Below, piece after piece: positions 3,368 through 19,049 of a stretch of DNA of 26,170 nt. Under the pieces are notes generated by a model. The model made no database searches and was not told the DNA's origin. It worked only from the letters and a program-made list of their open reading frames with translations. A program made the position numbers and the translations under genes. The stretch comes from a virus, in IMG/VR virus record IMGVR_UViG_3300023116_000293, positions 1 to 26,170 of that record, one strand, 5' to 3'. Every line of letters starts with the position of its first letter. Positions within the stretch are counted from its first letter, which is position 1.

Positions 3368-3375
3368 TATTTATA
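3368..3375 (-). promoter_or_regulatory. T4-type late promoter (TATAAATA) for gp15-13-14-16-17
   Basis: The minus strand carries the exact T4 late octamer TATAAATA in the intergenic gap, ending 28 bases from the gp15 ATG. That leaves room for a 5' leader of about 20 bases containing AGGGAA. The same octamer sits at the same distance from the gp8 start (20883-20890). In T4 such sites are read by the gp55/gp33/sliding-clamp late RNA polymerase; those factors are not in this window. Confidence 0.75.
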
Positions 3376-3377
3376 CA

Positions 3378-3383
3378 TATAAT
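3378..3383 (+). promoter_or_regulatory. Possible sigma70-type -10 box (TATAAT) for the plus-strand cassette
   Basis: A perfect TATAAT lies 17 bases before the first cassette ATG (3400), in the short divergent region. I see no good -35 hexamer at normal spacing (TTGTCT is too close), so it would need an activator or another weak -35. No TATAAATA is present on this strand here, which hints that the cassette belongs to a different expression class from the late genes. Confidence 0.3.
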
Positions 3384-3399
3384 AAAGTGAGAGGTGAAT

Positions 3400-4323
3400 A
3401 TGAAAAGAGTTATTTTTAGTCTTTATATCGATATACCAGAAAAGGATTTAGATTACCAACCTCCTTTTTATAAGGACGACATTCCTAAAACCTTGCGTAC
3501 AAAATTGAAAATGCGAGAATACTATTCGTGGTTAAAAGAAAATCATGAGAAATACGCAGAGACCATTGGCGTCGAATACAAAATTTTCGAGTATGGCGAA
3601 AAGTGGTTAAGTTTCAAAAGAAATTTTAATGAAAAATATCCGTTCATCACTGAGTACAATATCGTAAATTTTTATAAGATACATTTACTTTACGAACTGT
3701 GTGAAGTATACGACGAAGTTTTATACCTAGATTTTGATGTTGTACCAACCACAACAGAAAGTTTTTTTGATGTGTGGAACATTAAAGAAAATGGTAATAT
3801 AATAAAAATTTCTGACGAAAATGAAATGAAACAAATTAAAAAGATAAATGATATTCGTGAAAACAGCTTTCGATATAAAAGTGAATCGGTAATAGGAAGG
3901 GATTTTATCGCTAATAATCGTTCACCGACGGCGAAGTACTGGAATTGTAGAGCCTTATGTTTAGAAAAGGGTTACGGTGGAAAGGTAGAAGTTTTTAATA
4001 CTGGAATTATAGGAACTTCTAAAAAATATTTAGATCAATTATCTTATTGGGAAAATTTTGATAGTTTACTTAAAGAAATGACACAATTAAAAGAAGACAA
4101 AGATAGTCCATGGTTAGACTGGATGAAAGGTATTTTTGGTTGGGATAACGAAACGATATGGAGTTTCAAAACAAAAGAGAATAATGTTAAAACAACCTTT
4201 TTAGATGAAAAATGGCATTACATAATAACTAAATGGAATTACATACCAAAAGACACGGCATTAGTACATGTAATAAACAAAGATTTTGAATTTGTTAGGA
4301 ATCGAATAGATGCTGAAAAATAA
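3400..4323 (+). CDS. GT-A-type glycosyltransferase (cassette gene 1)
   Basis: This is a putative glycosyltransferase that transfers a sugar from a nucleotide-sugar donor; the acceptor is unknown. It has 307 aa from the ATG at 3400, which has GAGG 5 bases upstream; a GTG at 3394 is also in frame. Visible GT-A features, resembling GT8-type enzymes: strand plus DxD motif VLYLDFDVVP (D111-F-D113, metal and nucleotide-sugar binding), NTGIIG at 200-205, WDNETIW at 248-254, and a late His in LVHVINKDFE (H290) where such enzymes place a third metal ligand. No signal peptide or membrane helix is seen, so it should act in the cytoplasm. It is related to the third cassette gene: 13 residues around DFD are identical and both begin MKR-(V/L)-IFS. 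The last 14 bp overlap the radical SAM gene. Confidence 0.75.
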   Translation: MKRVIFSLYIDIPEKDLDYQPPFYKDDIPKTLRTKLKMREYYSWLKENHEKYAETIGVEYKIFEYGEKWLSFKRNFNEKYPFITEYNIVNFYKIHLLYELCEVYDEVLYLDFDVVPTTTESFFDVWNIKENGNIIKISDENEMKQIKKINDIRENSFRYKSESVIGRDFIANNRSPTAKYWNCRALCLEKGYGGKVEVFNTGIIGTSKKYLDQLSYWENFDSLLKEMTQLKEDKDSPWLDWMKGIFGWDNETIWSFKTKENNVKTTFLDEKWHYIITKWNYIPKDTALVHVINKDFEFVRNRIDAEK

Positions 4324-5290
4324 TACTCATTGGAAAATAGAAGATCTAAAGATACAATTAGATATATCAACTTATTGTAATGCTAAATGTCCTCAGTGCC
4401 ATAGAACAACTCCAGAAACTCTGAAAAAAGTAGATTGGTTACCTCTTATGAATTGGACTATAGAAGACTTCACGAAGGCCTTTAGCGAAGATGATTTAAA
4501 ACGAATAGGAGAAATACATTTTTCTCCCACTTGGGGAGATCCTGTGATGAATCCTCATTTATATGATATGGTGAAACACTGTTTTAATGTAAATAGAAAT
4601 ATTAAAATAAGAGTCAGTACCAATGGTTCAATTAGAAATGAAGAGTGGTGGTGGAAATTTGGATCTTTAGCAAAAAGAAAATTCGAAGAATTGAGTGTTA
4701 TCTTTGCAATAGACGGATTAAATCAAGAAATGCATGAAAGGTATAGAGTTAACACTAATTTGAAAAAGATATTAAATAATATGAAAGCCTTTTCTGAAGC
4801 TTTTCGTGCTGAAGCATGGTCACAGACAGTAATATTTAAACATAATGAAGATTATCTCGAAGAAATTAAACAAATGTGTATCGATCACGGTTCTAAAAGA
4901 CACGTTGAACTATTCAGTAGCAGATTTGATAAAGAAAAAATCTATCATTACAAAGACAATTTTTTAGAAAAGTCCACAAAAGATGTAAATTTTATACCTA
5001 ACAAAAAGATCGAAAAGGTTTTTTGTCAGTGGGAAAACTTAAATGAAGTAAATATAAATTACGATGGTTCCGTACATCCTTGTTGTTATTTTGGGAATCC
5101 TTACACAAGTCGAAATAATTCTTTTTTTGAAAATGAAATTATAAAAAAGTATGAAAACAATAAAAATGAACTAAATGTATTTTCGAATTCATTAGAAGAA
5201 ATACTATTAAATAAATGGTTTAATTCAGATTTAAAAAAATCAATAAAAGAGAATCCAATATATCAGTGTGAAAGGTTCTGCGGAGTATGA
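4310..5290 (+). CDS. Radical SAM protein with SPASM/twitch-like C-terminus (cassette gene 2)
   Basis: This is a 326-aa radical S-adenosylmethionine enzyme. The cluster-binding motif CNAKCPQC (C23, C27, C30; C-x3-C-x2-C) sits after a typical first strand. WGDPVMNP (75-82) fills the GGE-like SAM-binding place, RVSTNG (101-106) is another barrel strand, and FAIDGL (132-137) is the usual later strand. The C-terminal third carries C239, C258, C259, C320 and C324 around a YDGSVHPCC core. This is the layout of SPASM or twitch domains that hold extra iron-sulfur clusters. Members of that group modify peptides, but also sugars and alcohols, so the substrate is open. It sits between two related glycosyltransferases, overlapping the first by 14 bp and the next by 4 bp (ATGA). 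That places it in one pathway with them. Confidence 0.85.
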   Translation: MLKNNTHWKIEDLKIQLDISTYCNAKCPQCHRTTPETLKKVDWLPLMNWTIEDFTKAFSEDDLKRIGEIHFSPTWGDPVMNPHLYDMVKHCFNVNRNIKIRVSTNGSIRNEEWWWKFGSLAKRKFEELSVIFAIDGLNQEMHERYRVNTNLKKILNNMKAFSEAFRAEAWSQTVIFKHNEDYLEEIKQMCIDHGSKRHVELFSSRFDKEKIYHYKDNFLEKSTKDVNFIPNKKIEKVFCQWENLNEVNINYDGSVHPCCYFGNPYTSRNNSFFENEIIKKYENNKNELNVFSNSLEEILLNKWFNSDLKKSIKENPIYQCERFCGV

Positions 5291-6102
5291 AAAGATTAAT
5301 TTTCAGTATGTATACTGATAATATAGAAGAATATAAAACTTCCACAAACGACTTCAAAAGGAATCAATTTGAAAAATACAGGAACCTAATAGAAAAGAGC
5401 CACAAAGACTATGCCTTATCGTGTAAAGCGGATTATGTATTATTAAATCCGAGAGAAGTTTTCTATGATATGTTACAGTTTGAAAAAATATATAAATTAG
5501 AGGAATTCTGTAATGATTATGATGAAGTTTTGTATCTAGATTTTGATGTTGTACCAAATAAAAATGTTTCCTTCTTTGAAAAAAACGATCTAAAGGAAAA
5601 AATATGTTGTCATTGGATAAAAAGAGAATTTGAAGGCCTATTTGGAAGTTTAAAGGAGCTTATAAAAATTAAACAACGTGACTATTGTTGGGGTCCTATG
5701 GAAATGCACGTTAAAACATGCGTTAAAAAATCTATGTTATTATTAGAAAACACAAAATCCACAGATAAAGTTGTCAATACAGGAGTAATAGGATTAAGTA
5801 AGAAAACCGCAGAACTATTAAGATTCAAAGAAAGAATGAATCACTGTAATGAAGTGTTCAGAGAGAGTTTGATAGATAACTTATATCCTTTTGAAATATA
5901 CTCAAACTGGGAACCAAATAACGAAGTGTATTTTTCATATCTAATAGAAAGATTTAACATACCTACACAAGAAATAGGAATGCAATGGAATTTTATGATT
6001 ACCGAAGAGTTTAATGAAATGTCAGACGCAGCTTATTTAATTCACCACGTCACTAAAGAATTTGAAAAGAGTTTTGGAAATGTTGAGAGTAATAGCGGTT
6101 AA
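5287..6102 (+). CDS. GT-A-type glycosyltransferase, paralogue of cassette gene 1 (cassette gene 3)
   Basis: A 271-aa predicted glycosyltransferase. The DxD motif is in YDEVLYLDFDVVP (D85-F-D87), identical over 13 residues to cassette gene 1. NTGVIG follows at 164-169, PNNEVYFSYL at 210-219, and a His pair in YLIHHVTKEFE (250-260) near the end. Both proteins share the same order of motifs and the same opening (MKRLIFS here), so they look like an old duplication. This one is shorter and lacks about 35 residues, mostly before the DxD. The start is the ATG in the ATGA overlap with the radical SAM gene, with CGGAG just upstream. The donor and acceptor are not evident. It probably acts in the cytoplasm. 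Confidence 0.75.
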   Translation: MKRLIFSMYTDNIEEYKTSTNDFKRNQFEKYRNLIEKSHKDYALSCKADYVLLNPREVFYDMLQFEKIYKLEEFCNDYDEVLYLDFDVVPNKNVSFFEKNDLKEKICCHWIKREFEGLFGSLKELIKIKQRDYCWGPMEMHVKTCVKKSMLLLENTKSTDKVVNTGVIGLSKKTAELLRFKERMNHCNEVFRESLIDNLYPFEIYSNWEPNNEVYFSYLIERFNIPTQEIGMQWNFMITEEFNEMSDAAYLIHHVTKEFEKSFGNVESNSG

Positions 6103-6643
6103 TACTGGCGAAAAATATTCAAATTGGTATACTGAAAATCTAAAACATATGATAGACAAATATTCTTGTTTAGAATATGATAAGTTTGAAGTTATAGATC
6201 AAGAAGAATTTGGCGGAGTATATGATAAGATTCAAATATTCAATCATTTTAGAGAAGGCCAAAACATATTCTTCGATCTAGACATATTGATAAAAGGAGA
6301 CTGTAATTTCTTTTTAAGAAAAGAGTTAACGGTATGTCACGCTTGGCATAGAAAACACGAAGAGTATTATAAAATAAACCCTATAAACTCAAGTATAATT
6401 TCCTGGGAAGGAGACTTGTCCGTTATTTACAGATTTTTTAAAAGTGACCCAGAGAAATTAATTAAAAAGTTTAAGTATGGTATGGACGAATTTTTATATC
6501 AATACTACAGGCCTAAAATGTACACAGAAAATTTCTGTTCTTATCACACGTATCAAGATGAAAGGGATTATACAGTATATCTATTTAATCAAAACTATGA
6601 TAAAATGAGAATACCTAGTTGGTATTCTCACTATTTTCTATAA
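6080..6643 (+). CDS. Small glycosyltransferase of a marine-phage type (cassette gene 4)
   Basis: A 187-aa protein with the compact GT-A pattern I associate with marine T4-like phages. Features are VIAVNTGEKYSNWYTENL at the start, IFFDLDILIKGDC with a D-L-D motif (66-68), the TVCHAWHRKH segment, INSSIISWEGD (102-112), and YGMDEFLYQYY (133-143). The full-length frame opens at a TTG at 6062, but the ATG at 6080 has AAGAG 8 bases upstream and begins where the family pattern begins, so I prefer it. It overlaps gene 3 by 23 bp. It is a different subfamily from genes 1 and 3. The last 29 bp overlap the end of the 174-aa gene on the other strand and contain a terminator-like hairpin. The acceptor is unknown. 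Confidence 0.68.
   Translation: MLRVIAVNTGEKYSNWYTENLKHMIDKYSCLEYDKFEVIDQEEFGGVYDKIQIFNHFREGQNIFFDLDILIKGDCNFFLRKELTVCHAWHRKHEEYYKINPINSSIISWEGDLSVIYRFFKSDPEKLIKKFKYGMDEFLYQYYRPKMYTENFCSYHTYQDERDYTVYLFNQNYDKMRIPSWYSHYFL
6606..6630. terminator. Bidirectional terminator-like hairpin inside the tail-to-tail gene overlap
   Basis: TGAGAATACC (6606-6615) and GGTATTCTCA (6621-6630) form a perfect 10-bp stem with a 5-base loop. On the minus strand the stem is followed at once by TTTTATC. On the plus strand it is followed by CTATTTTCTATAAT, a looser T-rich tail. It lies within both coding sequences, giving the final residues of cassette gene 4 and the ENTN C-terminus of the 174-aa protein. It would end the right structural unit and the glycosyltransferase cassette. 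The stem has only 4 GC pairs, so strength is uncertain; the minus direction looks better. Confidence 0.65.
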
Positions 6644-7139
6644 TCTCAATAACCTTTTTAGTAGCTTCTAAAATAGATTTAGACTGTCTTAATTCTTTTT
6701 TGAGTTCTGTTTTTTCGGATACTTGTACTAACTCGTGTTCAAATAAAGCGAGTTTATACAAGAATAATTTTTCGTCGTATATCTCAGAAGATTCTTCATC
6801 TTCTTCATTTCTCTTTTCAAAAAGAAAATTGGCTAAGTTTCCGTATAGATTCGAATCCACATCACTATCGTAAACGAGGCCTCTTTGTTTTGCCACTTCA
6901 ATAGCATAATCTTCAAATTCTATTTGCGTCTCTTTGATGTGTTTATATGTTCTTTCATGTAACCAATCGATATCGATACCGTGATTCTCGATTAAATCTA
7001 ACCATATCGCATCACTTTCTTCGGCCTGTGCGTTTTCCACAATAACATTTTCAGGATTGTCATTATCTTGCCAAAGAATTCGAACGACCGTTCTTTGATT
7101 ATCGGAAAAGTGTGCGTCTAATAAGGTGTGATTTTTCAT
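6615..7139 (-). CDS. Conserved-looking acidic protein of unknown function, 174 aa
   Basis: I do not recognise a named family, although similar small acidic proteins occur beside tail genes in marine T4-like phages. The protein is rich in Glu and Asp (for example EKRNEEDEESSEIYDEK near residues 110-126). It ends in a charged helix, TELKKELRQSKSILEATKKV, likely to form a coiled coil. There is no signal peptide or membrane segment. It is the last gene of the right structural unit, following the 313-aa gene by 9 bp with a strong AGGAG site. Its last 29 bp overlap cassette gene 4 in the opposite orientation. Its position after the fibre genes would suit an assembly factor, but that is only inference. 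Confidence 0.6.
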   Translation of the reverse strand: MKNHTLLDAHFSDNQRTVVRILWQDNDNPENVIVENAQAEESDAIWLDLIENHGIDIDWLHERTYKHIKETQIEFEDYAIEVAKQRGLVYDSDVDSNLYGNLANFLFEKRNEEDEESSEIYDEKLFLYKLALFEHELVQVSEKTELKKELRQSKSILEATKKVIEIIENSENTN

Positions 7140-7148
7140 TTATTTCTC

Positions 7149-8090
7149 CTATCCTCTAACTAATCTCAAAACCCAACTATCAACCGTATTCAAAGATCCA
7201 CTCGGAAACTCCTGTGATCTATACTGATCCGCGTTAACAAATCTAGTCCTACGAGTTCCACTGCCAGTATATCTACTGTCTACCATCGTAGAACCTTTAG
7301 CAACGCCTGATCCATCTATACTATAGGTTAATTTAGAACCTGTCTGAGTTGCCCAGTATCTTATATCTTCTTGTAAAACAGTATCAAAATTTGCTGTGGT
7401 GTACTCTTGTATATCGTTTGTACTTGTTAGATAGTAAGGTTCGGTATATGTAGGCGCGGTCATTATAGATTGGTCAGTTCTCATTAGGTAATAGGCAGTT
7501 CTTTGCAATTGAGTACCTGATTGAATTGTACCGCTGGTGCCGATACCACCGGTAGTAAACGAACTAAGTTGTGAATACCAGTCTTCGAAAACAGGATTAG
7601 CATTCACATTTGTATGATTTGCCAAAGTTGTTGATGTATGTATTCTATAGGTTCCTGGTTGATCGCCTGTAGCGACCAATTGGTCAATTGCTTGTGTTAT
7701 AAATGTGTCGTAAAAATCCGTTTGTGTCATAGCGACAATATCGGTACCGTCATAATAAACAGGATATCTTTTATTATCCGTGTCTGTGGGAGCAGAAAGA
7801 CTTTCAATATTTAAATTAATTCTATCATAGTTGGTGCGAATGGTCACTGTAGGTTCGCCGGTCGATGCTTCAGACGGATAGCTAGTAGCACTTGTTTTTA
7901 CTGTACCCGATCTTGTATAGTAGTCTGCCATAATAGGAGTTAAAGTGCCACCTGAACTAGTATATGCTAAATCAACAGAAGGGTCAGCACCATACATATA
8001 CTCAGCACGGTCTCTTATCTCGGCTAATTGCGTGTCGTTCATTTCCTGCAAATCACCGCCTGTGTAATATAAAGGCCTTCTTATAGCCAT
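7149..8090 (-). CDS. Putative virion structural protein, 313 aa (marine T4-like family)
   Basis: A 313-aa protein opening MAIRRPLYYTGGDLQEMND, a form I associate with a conserved structural protein of T4-like marine phages; no biochemical role is known to me. It is rich in Thr, Ser, Tyr and Gly, with few long helices after the first 35 residues, so mostly beta structure is expected. Examples are SSGGTLTPIMADYYTRSG and PVYYDGTDIVAMTQTDFYDT. There is no signal peptide. It lies 19 bp downstream of the long fibre gene with AGAGAGGA as ribosome binding site, and before the 174-aa gene. The position suggests a fibre-associated, tail or neck decoration component. Confidence 0.65.
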   Translation of the reverse strand: MAIRRPLYYTGGDLQEMNDTQLAEIRDRAEYMYGADPSVDLAYTSSGGTLTPIMADYYTRSGTVKTSATSYPSEASTGEPTVTIRTNYDRINLNIESLSAPTDTDNKRYPVYYDGTDIVAMTQTDFYDTFITQAIDQLVATGDQPGTYRIHTSTTLANHTNVNANPVFEDWYSQLSSFTTGGIGTSGTIQSGTQLQRTAYYLMRTDQSIMTAPTYTEPYYLTSTNDIQEYTTANFDTVLQEDIRYWATQTGSKLTYSIDGSGVAKGSTMVDSRYTGSGTRRTRFVNADQYRSQEFPSGSLNTVDSWVLRLVRG

Positions 8091-8109: not shown

Positions 8110-11100
8110 TTATGGTATAGATTTTAATGTTTTCTGTGTAGTACCAGCTGAATTTTTTATATTTAGTGTCACTGTAAAACTACTACTTATTCTAGGTATG
8201 TCGGAATCTCCTACAAGGGAACCGGATGTGAGAACTAAATCTCCTGTAGCAAGCGTCAAATCTCCTGTATCAGCAGACATTGTAAATCTTGTAGTGGTTC
8301 CTCCGTTCCTATCCCGGATATAAAGATTATCGCCTGCAATGCCATCGTTATTTAAGTCAAGATATAAATGTGTACCATCGTGGAAAAATGCAGTGTCGAG
8401 ATTCGAACCTAGGTAAAATTCAACAGAATCATTTACCCTTAACTGACCACCATCAACAACAAAGGATAAGCTAGATGTTGTAGCTCCATTTAAATCAACG
8501 GCTCCATTAAAATCAATAGTATTCGAAAATGTCTTATTGCCAGCAATAGTTTGTGTACCGGAAGTTCTCACAACAGTACTATCGACAGCAACAGCATCAG
8601 CAGTAACAGATATACCATCACCTTGGCCGACATTAAGTGTTATATCTGAACTTAATGCTCCGCCATCAGTTAAACCACTTCCTGCGGTTACAGTTCTAGT
8701 AGTTCTAACAACGGTGCTATCGACAGCAACAGCATCAGCAGTAACAGATATACCGTCGCCTTGGCCGACATCAAGTGTATGGTTGGTGTTTAACTGTCCA
8801 CCACCTGTCAATCCTGACCCTCCATTTACAGATCTAGACAAGTCAGTAGCAGTATCGGCATTACCAACCAAATCTCCAGTAAATGTTGTGGCGCTTAAAT
8901 CTCCAGCTGATATATCAAAGGTAAATTTAGTGGCATCGGTTGTATCAGTTATTATTATGTCGTGATCATCATTTACATTCTGATGTATAACCAAATCATT
9001 AACAGACGAATTAAAATCAATCACAAAGTCGCCGCCAGTACCGGACCCCATTTGTAATTCAATATTGTCGTTAAATTTAAGTAGTGAACCAGTACCAAAT
9101 GTCTTATTGCCAGCAATAGTTTGTGTGCCAGTAGTTCTCACAACGGTAGTATCGACACTAAGTGTTTGATTAGTGTTTAATTGTCCACCACCAGTTAGAC
9201 CATCTCCAGCAATTACAGATCTAGACAAGTCAGTAGCAGTATCGGCATTACCAACCAAATCTCCAGTAAATGTCGTGGCTGCTAAATCTCCTGCTGATAT
9301 ATCAAAGGTAAATTTAGTGGCATTCGCCGTGTTGGTTATTAATATGTCGTTAAGTGTAGATTCATTCTGATGTATGACCAAATCATTAGTATTAAAATCA
9401 ATTACAAAGTCACCACCAGAACCAGTACCCATTTGCAATTCAACATTATCGTTAAATTTAAGTAGTGAACCCGAACCAAATGTTTTCTGACCAGTTATTG
9501 TATGATTAGCGGAATCAAAATAATCATGTAAGTCGGTCATAGCCACTTGTTTCATTGTACCGGCGTCATTAAAGACGACACGGTCAGCGTTTGCTACCGT
9601 AGTAGCGATAGCAGATGTACCTCCATCCAACACACTTAGTTCATCAGCGGTGACAGCGCTACTTGTTAAATCTCCTCCAGCACCATCAGTGATGACTACG
9701 ATATTATTATTTAATCCTCCTACATCAGTAGCATTAATGTTTGTGATAGAAGAACCATCGCCAGAGAATGCTGCAGCAGTAAGTGTGCCTGTACTAGGAA
9801 CATATGTTAGGCCGCTATCTTCATATAATCTAGATTGAGATCCGGTTGATGTGTTTATGAATGTCAAATAGTGTGTTGAAGCAGAGGATTCTTCATCATC
9901 GACCGTTACATCATCCGGTAGATTTCCTGAATGGTAAATATCTTGATTGACGCCACCAAAACGCACTTGAAAACTACCAATATTAGTAGTGTCTGTAGCG
10001 CCAGAAAATAGTATACTACCGCCAAGAGGGCCAGATCTTATACTTAAAAGCGAACCGTCTTTTTCGAATTCTGCGTGATCAGTAGAATCTTGAATACTTA
10101 ATGTAGCTGAAGCTTGACTGTTTGACTTAACATTGAGTTGACCTGCAGCTGTGTCATAAGTCAACATATTTGTATTACCGGTTATGACAGTATTACTTGA
10201 CCAAGTAGCTACATCTCTTTCAGTACCTATCGCATTTGGATATGGCGCATTTAATGGTTTTGAAACAGTACCATTACTTGCTAAAACATTAGTAATATCA
10301 ACATATGACATTGATGTGCCACCGGTATCCAGAGTCAAGAAGTATCCTGGATTTTCATTTGTGGCCTTAATGATACCTGTTAAATCAATATTACCGGCGA
10401 TATCTAGTGCTTGTGTAGGAGAATCATTGTTAATACCGACCCTTTGTGTAGAAACATCTACGAACAAAGTATTTGAAGCGTTAGAAGCAGTACTAACCAA
10501 TAAATCATTCGAGAGAGTAGTAATACCTGTAACATCAAGCGTATCATTAACATCAAGCGTATCATTAATAGTTGTAGCACCTTGAATAGTTGTGGTACCA
10601 CTAGAACTATTCAGTGTTACGCCTTGAGAAATGTCCGCTGTACCATTGATATCTAAACCAGCAGCAGTTAATGTTTGAGGAACATTTACGCCTGAAGCCG
10701 TAGTGGATAATCTTAGATTATTATTGTGATATAAATCAACAGCGCCATTTAATGTAAATGTCGCCATATTCTCTGAACCAGTGGCAGACTGTACATTAAA
10801 TGTATCGGCCTTATGAGTTACTGTATCTCCTGTGGTAGCAACAAACAGAGTATCATTAGTACCGTCGTGATAAATCTCAAAATCTTGATCTGTTCCTAAA
10901 TAAATTCTTTGGTTGTCAATAACGTTAACTTCATTACTGAAAGTAGAAATTCCGGAGACATTTAACAAATTAGTTGCTAGAGTGTTAGGAACATTTACGC
11001 CTGAAGCCGTAGTGGAAAATCTTAGGACATTATCATGGTATAAATCGACAGCGCCATCTTGAGAAGCAACGATACTATTCTCACTGGAGTTTGTTTGAAG

Positions 11101-12564
11101 TCGAATGGCACCAGCAGTACTTTGAATATAGAGGTCGCCTGTTCCTTGTTCTTTAATATAACTATCGCTTGCATCGTGATAAAGATGAAGGTCATCGCCA
11201 GTTCCAATCAATAAACTATCATTATCCTGAAGGCTAACATTGTTATTAAATGTGGCAATTCCATCGACTTGCAATGTACTTTGAAGTGTAGTAGCGCCAA
11301 GAATATCAGCAACGCCATCAACATCCAAAGAATCTGATTGAAGTTCGCCTGTGATATCTACACCGTCGGTTTTTGTAGCTAATTTTGGATCACCATTAAA
11401 ATATAAAGTGACTGCACCAAGTTGTTCAATTACAATACTATCTGTGAAAGTTGTTTGAATGTTCAAATTACCCGTAGTACTTTGAACATAACTATTAGTC
11501 GCGTCATGATAAAAGAGTAAATCTTCTGAATTGCCAATCGAAAGTATTTCATTATCTGGTATAGAAACATTAGCAGTAAAGGCTGTTACACCCGTTTCCG
11601 TCATTGTTATTCTAGAAGTACCGTCAGAAGATTTAATTGCAACACTTTCTGTACCACCAGAACCTTGAAGTATTGTAGAGTCCGAAGCATTTACAGTTAA
11701 TACTGTTTGTGATGTTCCACCGTTATTTTTAATTTGTAATTCGTCTGTATTCTGTAAGACGACATTTCCACCTACTTCTAAAGAAGACGATACTGTAGGA
11801 ACTATGTTAATACCTACTCTATCATTAACGGAATCGACATACAAAGTATCAGTGTCAAATATCGCATTAGCAGAAAAAGAAGCGACACCTGCTTCTGTCA
11901 TTGTTATTCTAGAAGTACCATTTGAAGAAGCTAATACAATACTTTCTGTACCACCAGAGCCTTGTAGTATAGTAGAGTTAGAAGTGTTTGCAGTTAATAC
12001 AGTTTGAAGTGTACCATCACTGGTTTTAATTCTTAAAGAATCTGAGTTCTGTAAAACAACATTTCCAGAAACTTCTAAAGAACCAGGAGTAGGCAAATCT
12101 ACATTAATACCTACAGCTGTTATTGATGTGTCTACATAAAGAACATTTGATACTACACCACTTACTTTCAAATCATCGGATACAAGTACTTTACCTGTAA
12201 CATCAAGAGCTTCGGTTGGAGTTGCGTTATTAATACCTACTCTATCAGTAGTTGAATTAACATATAGAGTATCGGTATCTACTTTTAGATCAGCCGATAT
12301 ATTTGTTTCACCATCAACGTCTAATTTAACAGCAGGTGTTGATGTACCAATACCGACCCTATTCGTTCCAGAATCGACAACAAAATTACTCGCCGGCGCC
12401 ATCGAAGTACCTACTTCCACATTACCAGTTAAGGTAATTCGGTTGTTCTCAAAGCTCGTAGTTATAGAGTTTAGACGATCAGCAGCGTCATTGGTATTTC
12501 TTCTCCAAACGTCAAACGTTTGTGTAATTTCGGTATTTGAAACTTTTATGCCATCAGTTGCCAC
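8110..12564 (-). CDS. Large repeat-built tail fibre-like protein, 1484 aa
   Basis: A long adsorption-fibre-like protein made of short beta repeats. The N-terminus (GIKVSNTEITQTFDVWRRNT) is likely the virion anchor. Repeats of the RVGIGTSTPAVKLDVDG kind follow (near residues 69-85, 108-124, 150-166, about 250 and about 708). They are mixed with YHDA/G-T-SY motifs and with FTGDLVGNADTATDLSRS modules near residues 1080-1250. Several modules are duplicated at the DNA level. The C-terminus (LNIKNSAGTTQKTLKSIP) shows no peptidase S74-type chaperone domain, which such fibres often carry. The protein is very rich in Thr, Ser, Asn and Asp. It starts with GTG at 12564, AGGA upstream, overlapping the 73-aa gene by 11 bp. 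Receptor unknown. Confidence 0.82.
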   Translation of the reverse strand: MATDGIKVSNTEITQTFDVWRRNTNDAADRLNSITTSFENNRITLTGNVEVGTSMAPASNFVVDSGTNRVGIGTSTPAVKLDVDGETNISADLKVDTDTLYVNSTTDRVGINNATPTEALDVTGKVLVSDDLKVSGVVSNVLYVDTSITAVGINVDLPTPGSLEVSGNVVLQNSDSLRIKTSDGTLQTVLTANTSNSTILQGSGGTESIVLASSNGTSRITMTEAGVASFSANAIFDTDTLYVDSVNDRVGINIVPTVSSSLEVGGNVVLQNTDELQIKNNGGTSQTVLTVNASDSTILQGSGGTESVAIKSSDGTSRITMTETGVTAFTANVSIPDNEILSIGNSEDLLFYHDATNSYVQSTTGNLNIQTTFTDSIVIEQLGAVTLYFNGDPKLATKTDGVDITGELQSDSLDVDGVADILGATTLQSTLQVDGIATFNNNVSLQDNDSLLIGTGDDLHLYHDASDSYIKEQGTGDLYIQSTAGAIRLQTNSSENSIVASQDGAVDLYHDNVLRFSTTASGVNVPNTLATNLLNVSGISTFSNEVNVIDNQRIYLGTDQDFEIYHDGTNDTLFVATTGDTVTHKADTFNVQSATGSENMATFTLNGAVDLYHNNNLRLSTTASGVNVPQTLTAAGLDINGTADISQGVTLNSSSGTTTIQGATTINDTLDVNDTLDVTGITTLSNDLLVSTASNASNTLFVDVSTQRVGINNDSPTQALDIAGNIDLTGIIKATNENPGYFLTLDTGGTSMSYVDITNVLASNGTVSKPLNAPYPNAIGTERDVATWSSNTVITGNTNMLTYDTAAGQLNVKSNSQASATLSIQDSTDHAEFEKDGSLLSIRSGPLGGSILFSGATDTTNIGSFQVRFGGVNQDIYHSGNLPDDVTVDDEESSASTHYLTFINTSTGSQSRLYEDSGLTYVPSTGTLTAAAFSGDGSSITNINATDVGGLNNNIVVITDGAGGDLTSSAVTADELSVLDGGTSAIATTVANADRVVFNDAGTMKQVAMTDLHDYFDSANHTITGQKTFGSGSLLKFNDNVELQMGTGSGGDFVIDFNTNDLVIHQNESTLNDILITNTANATKFTFDISAGDLAATTFTGDLVGNADTATDLSRSVIAGDGLTGGGQLNTNQTLSVDTTVVRTTGTQTIAGNKTFGTGSLLKFNDNIELQMGSGTGGDFVIDFNSSVNDLVIHQNVNDDHDIIITDTTDATKFTFDISAGDLSATTFTGDLVGNADTATDLSRSVNGGSGLTGGGQLNTNHTLDVGQGDGISVTADAVAVDSTVVRTTRTVTAGSGLTDGGALSSDITLNVGQGDGISVTADAVAVDSTVVRTSGTQTIAGNKTFSNTIDFNGAVDLNGATTSSLSFVVDGGQLRVNDSVEFYLGSNLDTAFFHDGTHLYLDLNNDGIAGDNLYIRDRNGGTTTRFTMSADTGDLTLATGDLVLTSGSLVGDSDIPRISSSFTVTLNIKNSAGTTQKTLKSIP
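8564..8778. repeat. 77-bp direct repeat pair inside the fibre gene (8564-8640, 8702-8778)
   Basis: Two 77-bp copies 138 bp apart differ at only a few positions, mostly in third codon positions. They encode the GQGDGISVTADAVAVDSTVV block twice. They indicate duplication of a fibre module. Confidence 0.85.
8786..9323. repeat. 151-bp direct repeat pair inside the fibre gene (8786-8936, 9173-9323)
   Basis: Copies are offset by 387 bp with no gaps over 151 bp. They are nearly identical across the part encoding SAGDL-ATTFTGDLVGNADT. Similarity continues leftwards in the protein (up to about 9130 and 9500) with small gaps. A 30-bp perfect match at 8527-8556 and 9097-9126 belongs to the same family of modules. 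Confidence 0.85.
10681..11024. repeat. 35-bp direct repeat pair inside the fibre gene (10681-10715, 10990-11024)
   Basis: Almost identical 35-bp stretches 309 bp apart, both encoding LR-STTASGVNVP. The surrounding protein (YHNN/YHDN before, NTL/QTL after) also repeats, so the unit is about 100 residues. Confidence 0.8.
11569..12082. repeat. 217-bp direct repeat pair inside the fibre gene (11569-11785, 11866-12082)
   Basis: Two diverged copies offset by exactly 297 bp (99 codons) without gaps. Both encode LEV-GNVVLQN, then TILQGSGGTES, then TSRITMTE-GV blocks. The exact codon spacing fits a repeated structural segment of a trimeric fibre. Confidence 0.8.
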
Positions 12565-12785: not shown

Positions 12786-14657
12786 CTATATTTGTAGCGC
12801 GATTGCTCTTATATTTTTAACTCTAGGATACAATCTAGAGGCTGCCGATAACATTACAATTTTAATTTTAAATTTTTTGAAACCTGTGTATTTAATGGAT
12901 GGAGTGGTGTTAGTATTTTCGTATTCTACTTCGCCATTTGAACCTGTCAATTTATTCGTAGGAATATTAAATTGATATTCAATAAAATCATCTAATTTTT
13001 CTAACTTCGAATAAGTAAACTCATTTTGTTCTTGTGTCATTTCAACCCAACTAATACTTTCCTCAAATGCTCGGTCATCCTCTCTATGTAAAATTTTATA
13101 ATAAACCTTTACATCTGTGCCATTAGGTTTATAAGCATCTATATAAACCCTTAGGTCTTCAGCATCTTGTCCTTCAGCAAGTGTTACCACCTTTGAAATA
13201 TATTTTGCCCAAGCTTCACCTCCGGTGATACCATCTTCGCCAGTGTAATCATTGTTAATGAGATATCTTGTCGCTAAAATGGCAGTTCTTTTGGTATCTA
13301 AAGCAGGTCCATGGAAACTATTAATATCTCTACTTAAATTTCCTGTTACTTGTACAGATCCAGATGCAATGTCGCCAGATTTTTCCATGGAATGAGATTT
13401 GACAAAAACATCCTCTCTTGTGAAATAATTGGGAACATTTAAATTTAGTTTATAATTTCCAGTTAAGTTATAATTATTAAAGGCCTTAGCTTGAGAAAAC
13501 TGTCCGGTGAAGGACATAGAAGAACCTTCAGGCGTTAAACCTGAAAACAGATTAACACTTTTATGAATAGGTTGAGCCAATAAAGCGCCAACAGGAGCTC
13601 TTATTCCATCTTCCTGTAATTTATAAAACTGTTTCATATCTTGAAAAACATATTCTCCGGTGCCCGGTTTAGACCATTCACCATTACTGTCACCAATTTG
13701 TGTTATACCCACATCTACAATCTTCTTCAAAGAAGAAGTATCATAAGCTCTAAGTTTTCCAGTAGGTGTTGTGATACTTACAATATTAGCAGTATTTGCC
13801 GCAGCTGAACCATTGATATACAATGTTACATTATTAGCAACTTCAAATTTATTTTCTAAAGTTAGATCAGCAACAACAAATGTTTTAGGATCAGAACCAA
13901 AAGGATCTTTAGCAACAATTATTCCGTTTGCACCAGCAACAGGGTCGACAAGTTCGTATTTAACTTGATTAGAACCTATCAATTGGGTGTTTGTGAATTG
14001 ATTATCTCCTGCTATTTCTAAATTCAATTCAACAACTGAAGAACCTTCAACTTGTTGTCCTATTCTAGCAGATATTCCTGATCTGGAAGTAGGCGTTTGA
14101 AAATATTCATTCTTAGCATTTCGTAACTTAATTGTTGCAGAATCATGTTTAAACTTCGCAATATGTAATTTATATTTTAAATCTTGGTCTGTATAAGGTT
14201 CCCATGTTCTACCATTTGAGGAAGCGAAGAAAACGCCTGTGTCCGGTTGTTTATTGATTTGCGCGCCTGAAGCAATATCTTTTTGGCCTAATTGTGAAGT
14301 CCAAACCTCATAATTAGGAGCATCCGATTTTACTATAAGAGCATACTCTCTGTCACCAAGTAAATATATTGGCGTGTCAAATTCAAACTCTGTTCCAACA
14401 GAACCGTCCGCAGAAACATTAATATCAGAAGGATATAAGACCTTTTTAGATCTAGGTAGAATAAAATTTGTTATATTATTAGTATCAGCATCGACCACTC
14501 TGACCTCGACCGAAACTGAACCAGCACTATCTTTTTTAGAGAAGAAAATGGTAGCTTTCGTTAAATAAACACCAGAAGCCGGCCTACCTATAGCCTCGTC
14601 AAAAACTCTAACATAAAATGTTTGAGCTACTGGAAAATTTGTTTCAAATGCTGACAT
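12786..14657 (-). CDS. Baseplate/fibre connector-like structural protein, 623 aa
   Basis: A 623-aa structural protein. Its first 160 residues (VAQTFYVRVFDEAIGRPASG, then YLTKATIFFSKKDSAGSVSV, LPRSKKVLYPSDINVSADGS, and YLLGDREYALIVKSDAPNYE) match a beta-sandwich region seen in gp9/gp10-region structural proteins of marine T4-like phages, where it may be fused to a DUF4815 protein. Here it follows that protein as a separate gene after a 50-bp gap. The rest is beta-rich with no motif I can name, ending FKIKIVMLSAASRLYPRVKN. There is no membrane segment. AAGGT serves as ribosome binding site. Location in the peripheral baseplate or as a fibre attachment piece is inferred from gene order. Confidence 0.7.
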   Translation of the reverse strand: MSAFETNFPVAQTFYVRVFDEAIGRPASGVYLTKATIFFSKKDSAGSVSVEVRVVDADTNNITNFILPRSKKVLYPSDINVSADGSVGTEFEFDTPIYLLGDREYALIVKSDAPNYEVWTSQLGQKDIASGAQINKQPDTGVFFASSNGRTWEPYTDQDLKYKLHIAKFKHDSATIKLRNAKNEYFQTPTSRSGISARIGQQVEGSSVVELNLEIAGDNQFTNTQLIGSNQVKYELVDPVAGANGIIVAKDPFGSDPKTFVVADLTLENKFEVANNVTLYINGSAAANTANIVSITTPTGKLRAYDTSSLKKIVDVGITQIGDSNGEWSKPGTGEYVFQDMKQFYKLQEDGIRAPVGALLAQPIHKSVNLFSGLTPEGSSMSFTGQFSQAKAFNNYNLTGNYKLNLNVPNYFTREDVFVKSHSMEKSGDIASGSVQVTGNLSRDINSFHGPALDTKRTAILATRYLINNDYTGEDGITGGEAWAKYISKVVTLAEGQDAEDLRVYIDAYKPNGTDVKVYYKILHREDDRAFEESISWVEMTQEQNEFTYSKLEKLDDFIEYQFNIPTNKLTGSNGEVEYENTNTTPSIKYTGFKKFKIKIVMLSAASRLYPRVKNIRAIALQI

Positions 14658-14708
14658 ATTTTTTTACCTTAATTTTTTAAAAAGTCTAACAAGTTATTAT
14701 TATATTCA

Positions 14709-17700
14709 TCAAAGTTCTGCGCCGCCGCCCACATCAGATCCAGCCTGGTCATTACAACTATCGTCTCCATTAGGGTCTGCGCCGCAACCGGCATCGCCAG
14801 CACCATCCCAATCATTACCAGGATCATAATTATTATAAACTGGCACCTCGATATAAACAGGTGGAGGTGCTGGAACTTTTGTAGTTTTAGTAGTTTTACT
14901 TGTAGTTAAAGTTTTTGTTACATCGAAATCTATATCATATTCTACCGTGCTAACACTGGTAGATTGTGTAGTAGATGATAATCCATGAGAAGTAAACTTG
15001 GCACTTGCAAAAGTTGTATTATCTTGAGTAGCACTTAAAGGATTATCGGTCAATGAAAATATTAAACCGCCAGTATGGAATCTTGCAGCTGGAATGGTGA
15101 ATATTCCATAAACTTCTCCTGATTTATATCCTGTAGCAATATCATCATCTGCACTAGCAGCCTTGACGCCGCCGCCTGTATTTTCAAATGGTTGTGTGGA
15201 TAATATAGAATAATTTGTGTCTGTTTGTAACACATCATTTGTAACACTAAATCCGTCAAAATATGGTTGTAATCTTGCTCCAGGTTTCATGCCAGTTGCT
15301 TTAAACTTAATTTCAATTGACCTCATATAAGGTATCAAAGAAGTATCAATAACAAAATCGCCTAAATGTTGAGCAGATTGTATTCCAGATGTGACCTCAA
15401 TATCAACATCAGTCGTCTCAAAAGTTTCTGTTAAAGTAGTTTTTACTTTATTTCCAGATACAGTTTGACTCACGCCGGAATTAACTAATTCAGTAGATTC
15501 AGCAACTTGTTTAATTCCATCAGAAATATCTTGAAAAACTTCGCCCATTCCGCTATCAAGAGTTACATTTCTATCTGGAGCAATTTTAGTTTCATTGAAA
15601 TAATCTGAAGGAGGATCTAAAACAAGAACACCATTATATTGATAATTCAAAGCTGAAAGAAGTGTTGATGTGGTCGCAAAAGGTTGTTCTTGCATAAGAA
15701 CCTCATCATAGTCAATAAAAATAAAATCTCCTTTTTGTTTATAATTTGAACTACCGGAAAGATCGACATCCATATTAACATCAAAGTTTAATTCTGCTGG
15801 AGACAATTCATTTCTGACTTTACTTACAGCAGCAGTATGATCTCTATTCGTCACGTCCGCATAACTATGACCTCTTAATGGATCAACGAAAAATCCGTTT
15901 TTAAAACGATTTATTCCGTTAACATCGGCTATCTGAAGGTCTGTTAAACTTTTTTCTAATAGATTTAAGCTAGAGTAATACTCGATATTTTCAATTCTCT
16001 GTTTTAATGTTCCTATATCTCTCATTGTGAAACGAACTTGTCTATTCTGTTTTACACGAACACCATCAGGAGTCTTTTGTTGTTTAGTGGCATAATAAGG
16101 CGACATGGAAGGATAAGCAGGAATATCAATTGTAGCTAACAATAAACCATCGTTCATGTTATGTCTAGGCGTCTGAGGATTCAAAGAAGGAACACCTTGT
16201 ATCACACTAGGAAGTCCATTCTTATTGATTATTACTAAATCTTTTCTCGGTAGATTAAAACTAACGTCTGTATTGAAAGTTTTATCTGCGTGTATAGAAT
16301 CTAATCCTCCAACACCATTAATTGTAGTACTTACTCCTGTAGGAACAGTTGTAGCAGGACTTGAGGAAATCAGAGGATAAACAGTGTTTGATGTGTATGG
16401 TCTAAAATCAACAACATCTCTTAATTTAATTCTATCTCCATTACTGTTAATATAAACAGGCAATTGTTCAGATCTAATTTCATCTGAAGCTGTGTTTACA
16501 TCATTTAAAGGATAAGAATCGACACTAAAATAACCTAAATTTCCGCCACCACTAACCTCAAAATAATCAAATTTAACCATCAAATAATCAGTGGCCTCTA
16601 AAGTCAAACCAGGTAAAAGTTTTATTTTTGACGTACCATAATAATTATCAGTTTGATTAGTGTCTAGGGCGAAGAATCTAGTAACATCAACAGTATCGGT
16701 CAAATCAGAAGCGTTACCTGTAAAATCACTTTTCTTTAAATATACGTTCTTAATATTAAAAACGTCTGGAACACCCAAAGGATAAGGTCCAGTTATACCA
16801 TGGGTGGCCATAGATATCTTAACATATCGGTTGTCGCGTAAAAGTTTAGTTTTAGCGCCTGCTGGATCCTTTTCTACAACTACTGATACATTAACACTTA
16901 TATCACCATTTGGAATATCTACCAAATCTATAGTAGGTTCACTTCCTGTACCAGTTAAAACAGTACCCATTGTAATAGATCTATCTGATTGTACGGTGTT
17001 ATTTCCGCCAGGAGCATCACCAAAACCATCTGCGAGAGGTATCACTTGACCAGCTCTAAAAACCTTTTTAAGAACAACTGTTCCTGAAGAACCAAATGTT
17101 CTAGTAGGACCAGATACATCTACTTTATTACCTGTCCTAAAAGCACTTACTACAAAAGAGTTAGCGGTATCACCCACTATTCTAAATTGGTCTCCAATAT
17201 TTAAATAGGCAGAAGGTGCCGTTGCGCCGGATAAAACAAATGTATTTGATCCTGCATCTCTTGTAGCTGAAGTATCTAAAGCATATTTAGCTTCAACTGA
17301 TTGATCAGACGTTATTTGCCATCTCGTTCTAACGCCAGAAGATCCAACTTGTTGACTAGCAGTTTCCACAAAACTAGCACCAGATAAATCTCCAATTCCT
17401 ACAGTACCTGTGGTAGAACTCCATGTACCTGTAATATGTCTTTTTGTTTGATACGATTGATTCTCTAAAGCAACACTGTCAATGGCCTCATAAGATGAAG
17501 TATCGGTTACTAGATCTTCAGCAGGCAAATTAATTAAATAACTATTGAGATTCGTATCTTCTAGAGCAGCAGTATTTGAAAATCCTAATACACCGTCTTG
17601 TAGAACCACATCTGCATAAGATGCTGGAGAAGTCGGCGTGTATATCGATCTTACATGAGCAAAAGAATTTGCTGTCATCTGAACATCGTACAAATACATC

Positions 17701-19049
17701 CTATACCGAGCATCAAAACTACCTTTTACTCCAGATTGCCATTCTAATCCGCGAATTTTAGCTGAACCTATTTGTGAAGCAGGAGGACTTACTCCAGCAG
17801 ATTTTGCAGATTCAAGAACAGCATTTGCTGCAACATCATGTAGTTGTACCGTCTTATGTTCATCATAATCAAAATCTCCTAACAATTGATCAACAACAAC
17901 ATAATTACCTATATTCGCATATTGAGTTGTTCCTTCAATTGACTCTATATCAATACCCTTTTCAACATTAACATAATACGTTTTTAATATATCAAAATCA
18001 TAACCAGAAACATAACCTTTACCAGGAGAAACGCCTGCTGCTAAAAGTGCTGTATTACCATTTTGTGTTGTACCACTCCATATCCCTCTATTACCTGTTC
18101 CTTGTAAATGTTCGTTAATGGTCAAGTTTAATCCACTAACAATGTAATCTCCAGACTCATCATATGTTCTTTCAGCTAGATAATCGCGAATAGCAGAATA
18201 AACTGTTTTATCATATTTTTCTTTAATAAAACCATCTTCAACAACAACTCTTTCTATAAAATTGTCGGTAATGGATTCGCCTTCATTTAAAACTTTAATA
18301 GTTGGAGTAAGTTTCAGTCTATCTGCACCAGGAGCAGCATAGTTATATGCGCCTTGTGCTGGATCTAAAAGAGTATTATCGTCTGTAAATGATACAATTT
18401 CTTCGTCTATGGTATAACCAACTCTTACACTTGGTCTGTTATTATACTTCGACGCAATTATCGATTGTCTATCAGCTCGTATAAAATGGTCTTTAGCAAA
18501 AAGTATACCTTCGTTTATAACTACCTGATAACCATAACCAGACGCATTTGCACTTAATAAAGTAGCAGTAACACCTGTATTTGAGGTAATAGTTTCTCCA
18601 CTTCTAAATATTTTTACTGAACTATTTGAACCCGAGTTTGTTGTTTTAACGAATAGAGTTTTGGTATCTGGTAAAGAAGCTTCTACACCATCAGCGGTAT
18701 CTAAAACAACTGCTGTTAATCCAGAAGTTCCTCCTGTAATCGATTTTCCTAGAAAATCACTAACATCTACTGTGGTTCCAGATTGTTCATCTAATAATCT
18801 AACCCATTGAATTTTATCGTCAACAGAAACAGCGTTGCCTCTTACGACACTGCCTTCTTTAAAGACGTGTTCACCGAAGCGATCAATCTGGTTTTGTAGA
18901 ATTGTTTGAAGTTGAGTCAATTCACGAGCTTGAACAGCAAGACCTGGCTTAAACAAAACTCGATGAAAATTCTTCGATTCATCATAGTCGTCGTAGTAAG
19001 GATCTACATTAAAATTAGTTTGCAATGTTCCTGTATTTGCTAATGCCAT
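14709..19049 (-). CDS. Giant DUF4815-like virion structural protein, 1446 aa
   Basis: A 1446-aa protein. Its opening (FNVDPYYDDYDESKNFHRVL, then FKPGLAVQARELTQLQTILQ) is the hallmark of the DUF4815 structural proteins of T4-like marine phages. It occupies the place of T4 genes 9-10, so a peripheral baseplate role linking wedges to fibres is likely but inferred. The middle is beta-rich; around residue 1000 there is a conserved stretch NLPRKDLVIINKNGLPSVIQ followed by RQVRFTMRDIGTLKQRIENI. The last 50 residues are odd: a proline-rich hinge (VPAPPPVYIEVPVY), then a Gly/Asp-rich tail with two cysteines (CGADPNGDDSC). It starts at the ATG with AGAGA upstream, 12 bp after gp8. Confidence 0.82.
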   Translation of the reverse strand: MALANTGTLQTNFNVDPYYDDYDESKNFHRVLFKPGLAVQARELTQLQTILQNQIDRFGEHVFKEGSVVRGNAVSVDDKIQWVRLLDEQSGTTVDVSDFLGKSITGGTSGLTAVVLDTADGVEASLPDTKTLFVKTTNSGSNSSVKIFRSGETITSNTGVTATLLSANASGYGYQVVINEGILFAKDHFIRADRQSIIASKYNNRPSVRVGYTIDEEIVSFTDDNTLLDPAQGAYNYAAPGADRLKLTPTIKVLNEGESITDNFIERVVVEDGFIKEKYDKTVYSAIRDYLAERTYDESGDYIVSGLNLTINEHLQGTGNRGIWSGTTQNGNTALLAAGVSPGKGYVSGYDFDILKTYYVNVEKGIDIESIEGTTQYANIGNYVVVDQLLGDFDYDEHKTVQLHDVAANAVLESAKSAGVSPPASQIGSAKIRGLEWQSGVKGSFDARYRMYLYDVQMTANSFAHVRSIYTPTSPASYADVVLQDGVLGFSNTAALEDTNLNSYLINLPAEDLVTDTSSYEAIDSVALENQSYQTKRHITGTWSSTTGTVGIGDLSGASFVETASQQVGSSGVRTRWQITSDQSVEAKYALDTSATRDAGSNTFVLSGATAPSAYLNIGDQFRIVGDTANSFVVSAFRTGNKVDVSGPTRTFGSSGTVVLKKVFRAGQVIPLADGFGDAPGGNNTVQSDRSITMGTVLTGTGSEPTIDLVDIPNGDISVNVSVVVEKDPAGAKTKLLRDNRYVKISMATHGITGPYPLGVPDVFNIKNVYLKKSDFTGNASDLTDTVDVTRFFALDTNQTDNYYGTSKIKLLPGLTLEATDYLMVKFDYFEVSGGGNLGYFSVDSYPLNDVNTASDEIRSEQLPVYINSNGDRIKLRDVVDFRPYTSNTVYPLISSSPATTVPTGVSTTINGVGGLDSIHADKTFNTDVSFNLPRKDLVIINKNGLPSVIQGVPSLNPQTPRHNMNDGLLLATIDIPAYPSMSPYYATKQQKTPDGVRVKQNRQVRFTMRDIGTLKQRIENIEYYSSLNLLEKSLTDLQIADVNGINRFKNGFFVDPLRGHSYADVTNRDHTAAVSKVRNELSPAELNFDVNMDVDLSGSSNYKQKGDFIFIDYDEVLMQEQPFATTSTLLSALNYQYNGVLVLDPPSDYFNETKIAPDRNVTLDSGMGEVFQDISDGIKQVAESTELVNSGVSQTVSGNKVKTTLTETFETTDVDIEVTSGIQSAQHLGDFVIDTSLIPYMRSIEIKFKATGMKPGARLQPYFDGFSVTNDVLQTDTNYSILSTQPFENTGGGVKAASADDDIATGYKSGEVYGIFTIPAARFHTGGLIFSLTDNPLSATQDNTTFASAKFTSHGLSSTTQSTSVSTVEYDIDFDVTKTLTTSKTTKTTKVPAPPPVYIEVPVYNNYDPGNDWDGAGDAGCGADPNGDDSCNDQAGSDVGGGAEL

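Follow-up and report, generated by a model that had tools for sequence, protein, structure and literature searches.

A glycosyltransferase and radical SAM cassette beside the virion genes of a T4-like phage and its possible role in cytosolic glycan assembly

Pelagimyophages have a 'host recognition cluster' with GT8 transferases and radical S-adenosylmethionine (SAM) cassettes, bounded by VrlC on one side and the neck gene gp14 on the other, and its description assigns the transferases to modification of the host O-chain (Zaragoza-Solas et al. 2020, PMC7029224). Viruses can also glycosylate their own particles. The A064R enzyme of the chlorovirus PBCV-1 extends the virus's own capsid glycan outside the endoplasmic reticulum (ER) and Golgi (PMC7826918), and the capsid and tail tube proteins of mycobacteriophages carry glycans, with phage-encoded transferases implicated, according to two papers (PMC11256854, PMC12619734) that cite Freeman et al. 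2023. Here, we analysed a 26,170-nucleotide stretch of T4-like myovirus DNA (the window; positions 1 to 26,170 of IMG/VR record IMGVR_UViG_3300023116_000293), which is part of a 36,207-base contig that is itself a fragment. Like the pelagimyophage cluster, the window contains a variable VrlC-to-gp14 island with fibre genes. Within the island, four plus-strand genes (the cassette, 3400–6643) encode three established or probable glycosyltransferases and a radical SAM enzyme. To our mind there is about an even chance that the cassette builds an unusual glycan in the cytosol and that the acceptor is soluble, most probably a virion protein encoded near the conserved gene m313. The features discussed below are:

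3368..3375, minus strand: TATAAATA, a late promoter motif of the T4 type that precedes the gp15 start by 35 bp
3400..4323, plus strand: GT1, a GT-A (GT8-like) glycosyltransferase of 307 residues (AlphaFold2 model, Foldseek, motifs)
4310..5290, plus strand: radical SAM enzyme of 326 residues with a truncated SPASM-like auxiliary-cluster domain (Pfam, invariant cysteines)
5287..6102, plus strand: GT2, a GT8-like paralogue of GT1 with 271 residues (profile homology, DxD)
6080..6643, plus strand: GT4, a small probable glycosyltransferase of 187 residues (FDLD motif, weak family links)
6615..7139, minus strand: m174, a conserved protein whose gene is convergent and overlapping with GT4
7149..8090, minus strand: m313, a conserved Ser/Thr-rich, presumed virion protein and candidate acceptor or partner
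8110..12564, minus strand: tail-fibre-like protein of 1484 residues, an alternative candidate acceptor (PHROG tail fiber, E=6e-53)

The four genes are not a chance grouping, and the cassette is common to a large, almost uncultured virus group. Among 50,697 phage records, relatives of GT1, GT2, GT4 and m313 were found in Pelagibacter phage Mosig only, and m174 in Mosig and, through a single short and weak match, in one other phage; radical SAM relatives also occur in Campylobacter phages and a Wolbachia phage. IMG/VR, by comparison, holds 347 contigs with relatives of GT1, 469 with m313, 141 with GT4 and 161 with the radical SAM enzyme. The loci studied were the best 80 of each IMG/VR list by similarity to the query and are thus not a random sample. 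Anchored on m313, every distinct locus with 3.5 kb or more of downstream sequence (40 of 40) contained m174 and a GT4-family gene; GT1 was also present in 30 of the 40, and the transferases were convergent, on the opposite strand, in 30 of the 40. When the radical SAM gene served as the anchor, GT1/GT2/GT4-type transferases were nearby in 42 of 53 distinct loci, so that two independent anchors yield the same association. An earlier note on this DNA, made from the sequence alone, had described an inverted cassette and proposed beforehand that it would fall if the genes never co-occurred in related phages. The grouping withstood this check, and the inversion proved to be common but not universal.

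Where the arrangement is convergent, the m174 side is constant; the middle and the opposite side both vary. The middle may hold a radical SAM gene before or after GT2, a twitch-type radical SAM protein, a carbamoyltransferase, an SGNH-like protein, a DegT aminotransferase, a nitroreductase, or nothing, and a nucleoside diphosphate (NDP)-sugar epimerase can stand between m313 and m174. The architecture is thus that of a core of conserved transferases around which sugar-tailoring enzymes are exchanged. GT4 and m174 overlap tail to tail by 29 bp in the window, and such an overlap is found at 116 of 119 of these junctions in relatives. Hypervariability of this region is known, and its left neighbours and middle genes differ among phages, as would be expected of a hot spot of unrelated accessory genes without a joint function. 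We consider this very improbable because the GT1-GT2 plus GT4 core recurs with its fixed m174-m313 anchor, and because divergent phages keep the active-site residues unchanged and the reading frames overlapping.

The cultured phage Mosig (EXVC030M, MT647606, genes 82–98) resembles the window in its convergent arrangement, with a GT1 that is 40% identical, a fourth gene that is 36.5% identical, an m313 homologue, QOI69061, that is 40% identical, and m174. It differs in having an island of ~10 kb with a single GT1-type gene, a split radical SAM enzyme, a DegT aminotransferase, a carbamoyltransferase and a nitroreductase. Beside this island, Mosig carries a second opposite-strand run (L001:4702-10955, minus strand) with genes for two Asp/Arg hydroxylase-like proteins, a desaturase-like protein, a dioxygenase, an aminotransferase, a peroxiredoxin and a flavin mononucleotide (FMN) reductase. 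Two Rhodobacteraceae metagenome-bin contigs (L329 and L330) contain m313, radical SAM, GT4 and GT1 genes and look like phage sequence binned with its host. The Campylobacter phages CP220 and F379 (L020, L021) carry a parallel island, with a radical SAM array and two nucleotide-sugar-transferase-like genes near baseplate genes (baseplate lysozyme). The array consists of five radical SAM genes and is accompanied by an amidinotransferase; no transferase there can be recognised as GT1, GT2 or GT4, and m174 and m313 are absent from the stretch examined.

GT1 is predicted to adopt a GT-A fold. Its AlphaFold2 model is confident (predicted local distance difference test (pLDDT) 90.3, predicted template modelling score (pTM) 0.89), and Foldseek found 31 matches in the PDB at E<=0.001; the ones listed are GT-A-type glycosyltransferases, led by a domain of PBCV-1 A064R and followed by a xylosyltransferase, LARGE1 and LgtC. 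The DxD residues D111 and D113 and the C-terminal metal-binding H290 are invariant in 45 sequences. The DxD motifs of GT2 (D85/D87) and GT4 (D66/D68, FDLD) are likewise invariant in relatives, in agreement with the three motifs pointed out in the earlier note. GT1 and GT2 share the DxD, NTG, DNE/NNE and C-terminal histidine motifs, and their profiles match each other at 1e-26 to 1e-42, which identifies them as paralogues by sequence; GT2 is assigned to GT-A through this homology. For the Pfam GT8 family (PF01501), GT1 gave no match and GT2 scored 15.2 bits with 24.3 needed (E=0.016), while 17 of 45 relatives matched at E<=0.1 (best 1.3e-6); we therefore label these enzymes GT8-like rather than GT8. 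The profile comparison of GT1 and GT2 with GT4 revealed no significant similarity. Weak family links, from the GT2 profile to GT4 relatives (0.002–0.004) and from one relative to a PHROG glycosyltransferase (E=0.005), suggest with moderate confidence that GT4 is a DxD glycosyltransferase of a separate, smaller family. Of the three GT-A enzymes that had been proposed, the model thus supports one and homology a second, the third being a probable transferase of another family. The core families had no convincing PHROG match, and sequence searches of the PDB returned nothing for the radical SAM or GT1 profile and only weak matches for GT2, GT4 and m313.

PBCV-1 resembles the window in encoding its own GT-A transferases, one of which, A064R, heads the solved structures matched by the GT1 model. 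It differs in being a eukaryotic virus with multidomain enzymes, and the likeness between A064R and GT1 is one of fold (~13% identity), not of family. We know of no radical SAM enzyme in PBCV-1 capsid glycosylation, nor of any involvement of such enzymes in virion glycosylation by mycobacteriophages, which are different phages from that of the window.

The radical SAM assignment is supported by PF04055 (39.3 bits, cut-off 29.5), and the SPASM domain PF13186 narrowly passed its threshold (22.3 bits, cut-off 21.5). As noted earlier for this protein, it has a CX3CX2C motif (C23, C27, C30) and additional C-terminal cysteines (C239, C258, C259, C320, C324), and all eight residues are invariant in a 15-member alignment, so that the radical SAM site appears intact. 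Of the full seven-cysteine SPASM motif (CX9-15GX4C...CX2CX5CX3C), the CX13GX4C and CX3C parts are present but the CX2CX5 part is absent, and we therefore call the enzyme SPASM-like. Its position between GT1 and GT2 is unusual, since in relatives the radical SAM gene more often follows GT2 or is missing; the two transferases flanking it are sisters, as had been proposed, but this order is not typical of the group. Cellular relatives of the enzyme (24%–31% identity, mostly from alphaproteobacteria) had no adjoining GT1-, GT2- or GT4-family transferase, these being the only families for which neighbours were checked. In many phage relatives, the radical SAM core and the SPASM domain are encoded by two adjacent or overlapping genes (e.g. 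L018:5263-6278 (−), L001:12426-13392 (+), L009:4126-5139 (+) and L077:20383-20721 (−)), and a stand-alone SPASM protein matches PF13186 at 1.7e-6. Another locus (L097:5465-8401, minus strand) contains a 978-residue ORF in which a complete NodU-type carbamoyltransferase is fused to a radical SAM domain.

Many peptide maturases are SPASM-type enzymes, and the cassette enzyme is weakly similar to maturase models. It might thus modify a virion peptide directly, in the manner of a maturase of ribosomally synthesised and post-translationally modified peptides (RiPPs), with the transferases then glycosylating that site. This is improbable, as its NCBIfam scores fall far short of the curated thresholds, a short precursor peptide was not seen in the cassette, and the island partners in relatives are sugar enzymes.

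The earlier note had named a virion protein, a host surface glycan or, less likely, a DNA base as targets. Modification of the host surface would change lipopolysaccharide (LPS) core sugars, thereby excluding co-infecting phages or preventing progeny from being trapped on debris. It has a precedent in the host O-chain interpretation of pelagimyophage transferases (PMC7029224) and would suit the GT8/LgtC-type fold of GT1. Of 742 island ORFs, however, none encodes a protein with two or more membrane helices and three have one, compared to 44 of 1530 ORFs elsewhere with at least one (p=2.5e-5). No multi-pass flippase, polymerase or membrane transferase of the GtrA/GtrB type was thus found among the island ORFs, making an O-antigen pathway dependent on a flippase or polymerase unlikely and disfavouring Gtr-type O-antigen conversion; the same absence argues against the O-antigen route proposed for the host recognition cluster. 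The acceptors left by this test are a cytosolic molecule or the LPS inner core. The four cassette proteins have no basic or hydrophobic membrane-binding tail, and the linkage of the island is fixed to m313/m174 and not to early genes.

Promoter motifs bear on the same question. The window has five exact T4-type late promoter motifs on the minus strand and none on the plus strand. Of 62 island starts, one from the window and 61 from relatives, 14 had late promoter motifs, where 2.5 are expected, which speaks against a host surface role, and 8 had sigma70-like sites (<=1 mismatch), where 0.8 are expected, which speaks for it by suggesting early expression in some relatives. On balance, we regard modification of the host surface as unlikely, though it retains a substantial share of our credence.

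Phages do glycosylate hydroxymethylcytosine, and the cassette could protect phage DNA against restriction in this way. A T4-type deoxycytidine monophosphate (dCMP) hydroxymethylase is encoded in 7 of 18 large island-bearing genomes (alignment to T4 gp42, E=5e-70). It lies at L352:1501-2100, at L353:1501-1998 and in 5 further large relatives, some of which also carry ThyX, which makes it unlikely that their PF00303 enzyme serves as thymidylate synthase. The hydroxymethylase was not detectable in the other 11 of the 18, including genomes of 159.9, 165.7 and 177.5 kb and Mosig (~76% complete), and where present its gene is located away from the island. This patchy distribution speaks against glycosylation of hydroxymethylcytosine as a general role of the island. 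Furthermore, the T4 alpha- and beta-glucosyltransferases are GT-B enzymes, whereas GT1 is GT-A and the cassette transferases are GT-A/GT8-like. A DNA target is therefore quite improbable, and disfavoured as a general role.

Returning to the virion as the target, the cassette would represent the form that a phage glycan-assembly island takes in this genome. In the cytosol, GT1, GT2 and GT4 may add sugars sequentially, and one of these may be altered by the radical SAM/SPASM-like enzyme, either as the donor or on the growing glycan. The most likely carrier of the product would be a protein of the virion surface whose gene neighbours the cassette, m313 or the adjoining fibre, and the particles could gain a variable coat affecting adsorption or recognition. 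The conserved linkage of the genes, the scarcity of membrane helices in island proteins, the sugar enzymes among the island partners of relatives and the match of GT1 to the capsid-glycan transferase A064R support this, and a virion acceptor is favoured by the tie of the island to m313 among structural genes, by the Ser+Thr content of ~25% in m313 (24.6%) and the fibre (24.5%), and by the PBCV-1 and mycobacteriophage precedents. Several points weigh against it. LPS is a frequent substrate of GT8 enzymes, and its inner core can be modified by soluble transferases. The window contains no sugar-nucleotide synthesis gene, the promoter classes of the relatives' islands are mixed between late and sigma70-like (possibly early), and GT4 is only a probable transferase. 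In addition, the virion location of m313 is presumed, its acceptor role is conjectural, and it may be tied to the island by position alone. The AlphaFold2 model of m313 is confident (pLDDT 91.5) but had no significant structural match in the PDB or BFVD and thus gives no functional clue; m313 (7149–8090, minus strand) may have a new fold.

The cassette is visibly more AT-rich than its surroundings, as previously noted, with a GC content of 29.2% vs. 36.0% elsewhere, lower than in any 3.2-kb stretch outside it (minimum 34.4%). Third-position GC in its genes (0.23–0.28) is within the range of the flanking genes (0.15–0.35), so that the AT-richness results from amino-acid make-up and is no sign of recent import, and we rejected recent horizontal acquisition of the cassette. 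Its genes overlap in series and interrupt a minus-strand structural region, confirming the layout first described, between gp15 and the m174/m313 pair. GT1 starts at the ATG at 3400, preceded by a GAGAGG-type ribosome site, while the ORF list opens at the GTG at 3394. To the left, the minus strand encodes gp15, gp14 (1829–2572), gp13, the small terminase subunit and part of the large one; to the right, it encodes m174, m313, the fibre-like protein, baseplate proteins (gp25, gp6-type, gp8-type) and two large proteins at the VrlC position (12786–19049). These neighbouring ORFs (12786–14657 and 14709–19049) match phrog_358 positions 1423–1671 and 4–1414, respectively, and the large VrlC-position protein thus appears to be split in two here.

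The earlier note knew of no described pathway of this kind, yet the region is already familiar as the pelagimyophage host recognition cluster and is not wholly undescribed. Relative to the available part of PMC7029224, which does not define them, the GT1/GT2/GT4 core and the m174-m313 anchor are new, as are the lack of membrane proteins and the finding that radical SAM/SPASM genes are often split. A wider proposal, which we advance tentatively and believe with rather less than even confidence, is that a fixed transferase core with exchangeable radical SAM, carbamoyl and amino-sugar enzymes builds combinatorial virion glycans in the cytosol of widespread, nearly uncultured phages. This would be a counterpart of chlorovirus capsid glycosylation in which radical chemistry leads to sugars foreign to the host. 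The cassette also offers a compact enzyme set for unusual sugars, including the split radical SAM/SPASM pairs. Only one cultured phage carries it, compared to hundreds of IMG/VR contigs, but as Mosig grows on Pelagibacter ubique HTCC1062, the question is testable now. If the glycan is located on the virion, our understanding of adsorption, immunity and host range in abundant aquatic phages would change, and the usual interpretation of these genes as modifiers of host LPS would be overturned.

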